A stretch of DNA of 64,000 nucleotides from Bacillota bacterium. GTDB lineage: Bacteria > Bacillota > Clostridia > Peptostreptococcales > Anaerovoracaceae. The DNA is taken from positions 62,001 to 126,000 of the forward strand of contig JAQXQE010000011.1 of the NCBI GenBank assembly GCA_029101005.1, given 5' to 3'. Positions 51,811-52,548 of the stretch are shown piece after piece (positions within the stretch are counted from its first letter, which is position 1; each line of letters starts with the position of its first letter). Below the pieces are notes generated by a model. It was not told where the DNA came from and did no database searches. It was given only the letters and a program-made list of their open reading frames with translations. Made by a program: the position numbers and the translations under genes.

Positions 51811-51870
51811 TGTCCTTCTCCAATCTACTTATATTTGTAAATACTTGCGTAATATATGCTCAACTTAGTA

Positions 51871-51899
51871 ATTATATATAGATTTGTCGCAAAGTGCAA
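51871..51899 (-). promoter_or_regulatory. Promoter of fumC
   Basis: Minus strand: TTGCAC (51894-51899), 17-bp spacer, TATAAT (51871-51876). Confidence 0.6.
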
Positions 51900-51905
51900 A
51901 GATAT

Positions 51906-51928
51906 AGCCGCCTTTTCGGCGGCTTTTT
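51906..51928. terminator. Hairpin between the XRE gene and fumC
   Basis: AGCCGCC / GGCGGCT with TTTTC loop. The T-run (TTTT) is on the plus side; on the minus strand, where the XRE gene ends at 51947, the tract is TATATCTTTG. Likely ends the XRE transcript but is not ideal. Confidence 0.55.
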
Positions 51929-51946
51929 GCAAAAATATTTGTTTTT

Positions 51947-52267
51947 TTATTCAATCATGGCGTTAATTACGCGCATTATCTCTTCTTTCTTCTGCGAAGA
52001 GCAATCACTGAGCATAGATACGAAGGATTCTTCGCTGTAAGACTCATATACATCCCGCTTTACAAGTATGCAGTCTGGTGTAATCTCCAGCGCCCCGCAT
52101 ATCTTCTGAAGCGTCTGCACTCCCATATTCGTGGATCCTCTTTCGATATTTGAATACGCCCTCAGTGTAATTCCAGCGAGTTCAGCGAGCTGCGCCTGCG
52201 TCAGCCTCCGCACCTCCCTCTGCTCACGAAGTGCATTTCCGATATCCTGCAGATCAGAAACAAGCAT
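51947..52267 (-). CDS. Small XRE-family transcriptional regulator
   Basis: 106 residues. Helix-turn-helix in residues 8-65 (ALREQREVRRLTQAQLAELA, then GITLRAYSNIERGSTNMGVQ), followed by a short C-terminal extension without a known ligand domain. AGGAGGAAGAG precedes the ATG. It is divergent from the candidate small RNA at 52353, and two TAGGAA-N6-TTCYTA operators lie between them, so it probably represses itself and the RNA. Similar small XRE proteins serve as phage-type or element repressors, but no element is visible here. Confidence 0.85.
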   Translation of the reverse strand: MLVSDLQDIGNALREQREVRRLTQAQLAELAGITLRAYSNIERGSTNMGVQTLQKICGALEITPDCILVKRDVYESYSEESFVSMLSDCSSQKKEEIMRVINAMIE

Positions 52268-52292
52268 TACTCTTCCTCCTTAGTTATACTAT

Positions 52293-52311
52293 ATAGGAAT
52301 CATAATTCTTA
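52293..52311. promoter_or_regulatory. Operator 2 of the XRE/sRNA intergenic region
   Basis: ATAGGAATCATAATTCTTA: TAGGAA-N6-TTCTTA, one mismatch from symmetry, located 25-45 bp before the XRE start over its presumed promoter. Confidence 0.5.
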
Positions 52312-52317
52312 AACGTA

Positions 52318-52346
52318 TTGACATATAGCCCACTGAAGTTCATAAT
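52318..52346 (+). promoter_or_regulatory. Plus-strand promoter of the candidate small RNA
   Basis: TTGACA (52318-52323, perfect), 17-bp spacer, CATAAT (52341-52346, one mismatch). It points away from the XRE gene into a region with no protein gene. Confidence 0.75.
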
Positions 52347-52347
52347 T

Positions 52348-52367
52348 ATAGGAACTACAGTTCCTAT
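52348..52367. promoter_or_regulatory. Operator 1 at the small-RNA start site
   Basis: ATAGGAACTACAGTTCCTAT, a perfect 9-bp inverted repeat with AC centre. It spans the predicted transcription start, where a bound repressor would block initiation. Confidence 0.6.
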
Positions 52368-52462
52368 TAATATGTAGTAATATACAAGCTGAAGAACCCT
52401 ATGCAAAAATATCACCACCCATCTTCAGCTCGTTAGAGCTTGCTTCGTCAAGCTCTTTTTTT
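52353..52462 (+). ncRNA. Candidate small RNA of about 110 nt
   Basis: The transcript begins after a near-consensus promoter and ends at a strong intrinsic terminator. It contains stem AGCTGAAGA (52387-52395) / TCTTCAGCT (52422-52430) enclosing a 26-nt loop with CACCACCC (52413-52420), complementary to G-rich ribosome sites. Only an 11-codon reading frame (ATG 52401, no ribosome site) is possible. No plus-strand gene lies downstream, since tsf is convergent, so this is not a leader. It does not match an RNA family I recognise. Confidence 0.6.
52435..52462 (+). terminator. Intrinsic terminator of the candidate small RNA
   Basis: AGAGCTTG / CAAGCTCT stem, loop CTTCGT, then seven T. Confidence 0.85.
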
Positions 52463-52482
52463 GCGTTATCAATACCGTGCCG

Positions 52483-52515
52483 AAAAAAAGAAGCACGCAT
52501 ATAGATGCGTGCTTC
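52483..52515 (-). terminator. Terminator of rpsB-tsf
   Basis: Minus-strand GAAGCACGCAT / ATGCGTGCTTC with four-base loop, then seven T; 33 bp after the tsf stop. Confidence 0.9.
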
Positions 52516-52548
52516 CGGGTATTTGTCGTGTTATGTACAGCTTACGAC

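Follow-up and report, generated by a model that had tools for sequence, protein, structure and literature searches.

The locus analysed here stands an even chance, in our judgement, of being a small switch under its own control, with a terminator-ended RNA of approximately 110 nt, most likely a base-pairing sRNA, as the output. At the level of sequence prediction and comparison, a pair of operators, a divergent promoter, a stable RNA fold, the absence of an open reading frame (ORF) from the transcript, and the absence of other intergenic operators are all established. In the proposed mechanism, a dimer of the XRE protein would bind both operators, which lie 55 bp apart, and from the position of these operators the bound protein is expected to shut its own gene as well as the divergent promoter. 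Loss of XRE upon a signal would release the divergent promoter, the RNA of about 110 nt would then be made, and its open 26-nt loop may pair with one or a few mRNAs, an interaction that is suggested because the loop is open. The main rival is an orphaned promoter with a functionless transcript.

XRE gene, control region, and predicted RNA

The window, which is the whole stretch of 64,000 nucleotides that was analysed, belongs to genome G000 (1.6 Mb), and the locus is situated on contig 11 of this genome. The gene order is rpsB and tsf (minus strand), the RNA unit (plus strand), the XRE gene (minus strand), and fumC (minus strand). With the exception of XRE, the neighbour names rpsB, tsf, fumC, and malic enzyme are what we take the translations to represent. 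The features of the locus are as follows.

51906 to 51924, minus strand: terminator-like hairpin 3' of the XRE gene, before fumC (terminator scan)
51947 to 52267, minus strand: XRE (Cro/C1-type HTH) repressor gene, 106 aa, judged monocistronic by its own terminator
52292 to 52311, no strand: predicted operator 2, dyad TATAGGAATCATAATTCTTA, ahead of the XRE gene (from the sequence)
52318 to 52346, plus strand: divergent promoter TTGACA-17-CATAAT (promoter scan; identical hexamers and spacing in G259)
52348 to 52367, no strand: predicted operator 1, perfect 20-bp dyad ATAGGAACT-AC-AGTTCCTAT on the predicted RNA start (from the sequence)
52353 to 52462, plus strand: predicted noncoding RNA of about 110 nt, its start placed from the -10 element
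52387 to 52430, plus strand: 9-bp stem AGCTGAAGA/TCTTCAGCT closing a 26-nt loop in which ACCC and CACCACCC occur (fold prediction)
52435 to 52462, plus strand: intrinsic terminator of the RNA, a hairpin at 52435-52456 followed by T (terminator scan)

The TTGACA promoter, both dyads, the 9-bp stem, the C-rich loop, and the terminator had been described in a sequence-only reading of this DNA, and each was found where that reading had placed it. The 106-aa XRE protein contains an HTH_3 domain (46.4 bits, E 3.9e-12, cut-off 23). The promoter scan returned no promoter for the XRE gene itself, so the description of operator 2 as lying over the XRE promoter is a statement of position. The divergent promoter has its -35 element TTGACA at 52318-52323 and its -10 element CATAAT at 52341-52346, separated by a 17-nt spacer, and matches the consensus at 11 of 12 positions. 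Operator 2 is a direct copy of operator 1 (75% identical) located 55 bp away toward the XRE gene. Single operator-like sites scoring at least 10 of 12 are not rare, with 2.55 expected per shuffled window; the pair with its 55-bp spacing, at the score seen in the window, was obtained in 0 of 2000 shuffles. Both general scans were at most slightly above chance, with 4 against a shuffle mean of 3.3 for promoters and 3 against 1.5 for terminators.

The predicted RNA folds with a z score of -5.20 (0 of 200 shuffles as good) and, when the terminator is removed, with a z score of -4.22 (1 of 200 shuffles as good). A perfect 9-bp stem appeared in 26 of 5000 dinucleotide shuffles, a figure that applies to a stem picked after being seen. 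The C-rich CACCACCC is unpaired in the predicted loop. With its divergent promoter, its intrinsic terminator, and no convincing ORF, the locus has the layout of a regulator/divergent-sRNA pair. No Rfam family matched the RNA at its gathering score (the best overlapping match was tsr26, with 18.5 bits against a gathering score of 141), and a search of Rfam with five relatives gave no match above gathering. A separate intergenic terminator-like element in the same genome, at G000:C15:106672-106697 (L286), consists of the perfect hairpin GGGTGGTGCAAGATATTGCACCACCC followed by TTTTCTT and has CACCACCC in common with the RNA loop.

Conservation of the control block

An operator pair with a spacing of exactly 55 bp was present at the same position beside the XRE gene in five of the six members of the XRE subfamily (the window, G259, G373, G336, and G340), which bears out the earlier description of two operators next to this gene; the sixth member, G200, was without such a pair. 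Since G336 and G340 are of one genus, the five members represent at most four independent lineages. Counted from the XRE start, their operator-like sites begin at distances of 23-26 nt and 78-81 nt. The paired scores, each of a possible 12, were 11+12 in the window, 11+11 in G259, 11+9 in G373, 9+9 in G336, and 8+9 in G340, and pairs of equal score were seen 0, 0, 0, 0, and 2 times, respectively, per 2000 shuffles.

The window and G259, with XRE proteins that are 39% identical, have identical promoter hexamers and spacer (11/12), and 49 of the 77 bp of the control block are the same in both. At the homologous place, the promoter is poor in G373 (3/12), G336 (7/12), and G340 (7/12). The region 3' of the operators is noncoding in the window and G259; G373 has a PNPOx-like gene there, and in G336 and G340 a converging gene has its terminator at this place. 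Beside XRE genes, a noncoding promoter-to-terminator layout is rare, being found in at least 4 of 102 upstream regions, two of them within ORFs; this count is a lower bound because the survey missed the terminator of G259, whose stem enters the U tract.

In G259, the stretch of 191 nt that starts at the putatively operator-controlled promoter is noncoding and folds with a z score of -7.28. It is closed off by a terminator-like hairpin, parts of which recur elsewhere. No likeness to the RNA of the window was visible, and in 49 genomes of its genus the G259 RNA was not kept, terminator-like bits excepted. The gene that follows on the same strand was reached via a neighbouring contig that has a 141-base overlap with the contig end; reading by eye places a separate promoter-like sequence, TTGAAA-17-TATACT, ahead of it. 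The product of this gene (L389, end of G259 contig 4, reverse strand) joins a Cro/C1-type HTH to an AMP-binding domain, both assigned with Pfam on the start of the protein.

Distribution of the XRE subfamily and of the unit

At E 1e-3, a direct search with the XRE protein picked up generic XRE proteins in 80 of 99 relatives and revealed no close relative within the genus (best E 1.5e-10). Across the family, 11 of 349 genomes passed E 1e-10, and a profile built from five members set six genomes apart: all six scored E 1e-48 or lower, and the next match 2.9e-18. The subfamily is rare and patchy (6/349). At E 1e-22, a draw from the order yielded 2 of 393 genomes (the window and G259) and a draw from the phylum 1 of 398 (the window). 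The members occupy differing gene neighbourhoods. In the scan of genome contigs, which took in 80 of 242 XRE matches and so may have missed close relatives, the top ones among these 80 were 38-42% identical across most of the domain. No close relative of XRE was among the viral-contig matches listed or in the phages and plasmids searched. The operator-pair pattern occurred in 7 viral stretches, none with a subfamily XRE adjoining, and the stem pattern had no match in viral contigs.

The sister species G036 has tsf and fumC proteins that are 96% and 94% identical, respectively, to those of the window, and between the two genes it carries approximately 6.4 kb of other genes and nothing resembling the XRE/RNA unit. 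Compared with window positions 51811-52548, the corresponding sister locus (L255) holds, in this 6.4 kb, several genes absent here from the window, presumably rubrerythrin-, Fur-, amidohydrolase-, and cation-efflux-like. No homologue of the RNA was detected in the 148 genomes searched, and neither its sequence nor its structure was found conserved in these genomes, in G036, or in the genus of G259.

Search for a regulon and for RNA targets

The motif TAGGAA-N6-TTCCTA, with at most one mismatch, occurs at 8 places in the genome of the window and its reversed control at 9. Two of the 8 are at the locus, and since the other six lie inside ORFs the RNA looks like the only output of the repressor besides itself, a reading that covers sites with at most one mismatch and that weaker sites could escape. 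A regulon defined by GGAACTNNAGTTCC was considered and rejected: this word recurs across the genus, and in the six loci checked (L054-L057, L059, and L063) it lies in a ribosomal-protein gene, which we take to be rpsE. Two other exact copies of GGAACTNNAGTTCC in the genome of the window are also within reading frames. In the loci from the genus, the exact operator-like word falls on conserved ribosomal-protein codons (GTTVP), which makes it a trap for motif-based regulon calls.

The sequence-only reading had proposed that the C-rich loop controls the translation of many mRNAs, and this proposal found no support. The exact complement, GGGTGGTG, occurs at 31 places in the genome of the window against 15 for its reversed control, and at none of the 30 of these places examined does it coincide with a convincing ribosome site. 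One of the 30 is the RNA gene itself, and the one flagged near a start is an 80-aa frame that has no ribosome site and lies opposite a 591-aa frame, and was taken as an artefact. When the loop was scanned for duplexes with 99 translation starts, drawn from the window and 27 loci (about a tenth of the genome), no excess of pairing emerged, with 82 of 100 shuffled loops pairing equally well or better on average. Pairing of the RNA with the XRE leader, the XRE ORF, the end of tsf, and the start of fumC was no better than expected, as 145, 101, 41, and 168 of 200 shuffles, respectively, were as good.

Alternative explanations

The alternative that deserves most weight, and that we regard as a serious though somewhat doubtful possibility, is that the XRE gene regulates itself in the ordinary way and the divergent promoter is an orphan: whatever gene this promoter formerly drove would have been lost or swapped, the terminator would only prevent an antisense run into tsf, and the RNA would be functionless. 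The patchy occurrence of the unit (6 of 349 family genomes), the differing regions behind the operators, the G200 member without operators, the unrelated RNA bodies, and the sister species without the unit are all as this explanation would have it. It accounts less well for a promoter and operator that are at consensus quality in both the window and G259, and for two predicted transcripts that fold far beyond their shuffles and each end in a terminator of their own, whereas a mere stop would not require a stem plus loop. The earlier suggestion of a regulator plus small RNA unit is supported as far as the XRE gene, the two operators, and a predicted divergent transcript that ends at a terminator and carries no protein gene are concerned, and finds no support as regards control of many mRNAs or a role in antitoxin or immunity functions.

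That last role, in which the transcript would be the antitoxin or immunity RNA of a module (type I/III-like or P4/P1-immunity-like), is very unlikely. An XRE gene and a structured RNA on a patchy unit would fit it, yet no toxin, effector, or other partner gene adjoins; the neighbours are presumably tsf/rpsB and fumC/malic enzyme, fumC and tsf had no match in the defence library, and the XRE protein gave only generic HTH matches there. Nor was a close XRE relative present among the viral-contig matches listed, in phages, or in plasmids. Slightly less probable again is that the transcript serves a downstream gene as its leader (attenuator). This is conceivable for the XRE-AMP-ligase gene of G259, which lies beyond the terminator on the same strand; in the window, however, tsf comes next and lies on the opposite strand, and the next gene in G259 has a promoter-like sequence of its own. 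We attach the least probability to a short peptide encoded by the RNA. Its sole ATG frame longer than a single codon, which begins at 52401 in the loop region and spans 11 codons (MQKYHHPSSAR), has no ribosome site ahead, and the product is neither hydrophobic nor signal-like and had no counterpart found in relatives.

Comparison with known systems and implications

In OxyR/OxyS, GcvA/GcvB, and SgrR/SgrS, the gene of a transcription factor and that of an sRNA have a common divergent control region, and the regulators OxyR, GcvA, and SgrR are non-XRE proteins, mostly activators. The divergent control region is alike here, whereas the regulator is a small Cro/C1-type repressor with two predicted operators. 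In the openly accessible literature searched, no title or opening of an abstract described a divergent sRNA beside an XRE repressor. A regulator gene with a divergent sRNA is a known arrangement, and an XRE repressor whose sole output is apparently a noncoding divergent transcript is a new candidate case.

Autoregulation through palindromes is standard for XRE proteins, and XRE/ImmR/DdrO-type repressors are described as acting on such sites upstream of their own gene (PMC12565409), whereas here the other site of the pair is on the promoter of a predicted noncoding transcript. The C-rich Firmicute sRNAs IsrR and FsrA have a C-rich stretch in a single-stranded loop, which serves for pairing, and an intrinsic terminator, and IsrR is Fur-controlled, conserved in staphylococci, and has targets that were shown (PMC9410917). 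The C-rich loop and intrinsic terminator of the present RNA resemble these features, whereas the RNA is unconserved and ribosome-site targets are unsupported.

If the proposed switch is real, the locus would be a clean circuit of two parts, with a noncoding RNA as apparently the sole output of a Cro/C1-type repressor and an operator layout open to testing in relatives; with an inert RNA, it would be an ordinary autoregulated XRE gene. A broader and improbable proposal is that a small XRE gene and a fixed 77-bp control block, in which two operators 55 bp apart flank a strong divergent promoter, form a mobile regulatory 'socket', the output slot of which would take different structured noncoding RNAs across genomes, so that the XRE/RNA pair would be inherited as a unit while the RNA quickly evolved or was exchanged to suit new targets. 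Exchange of the RNA slot while the repressor block stays, if it occurs, would show how new sRNAs acquire ready-made control.
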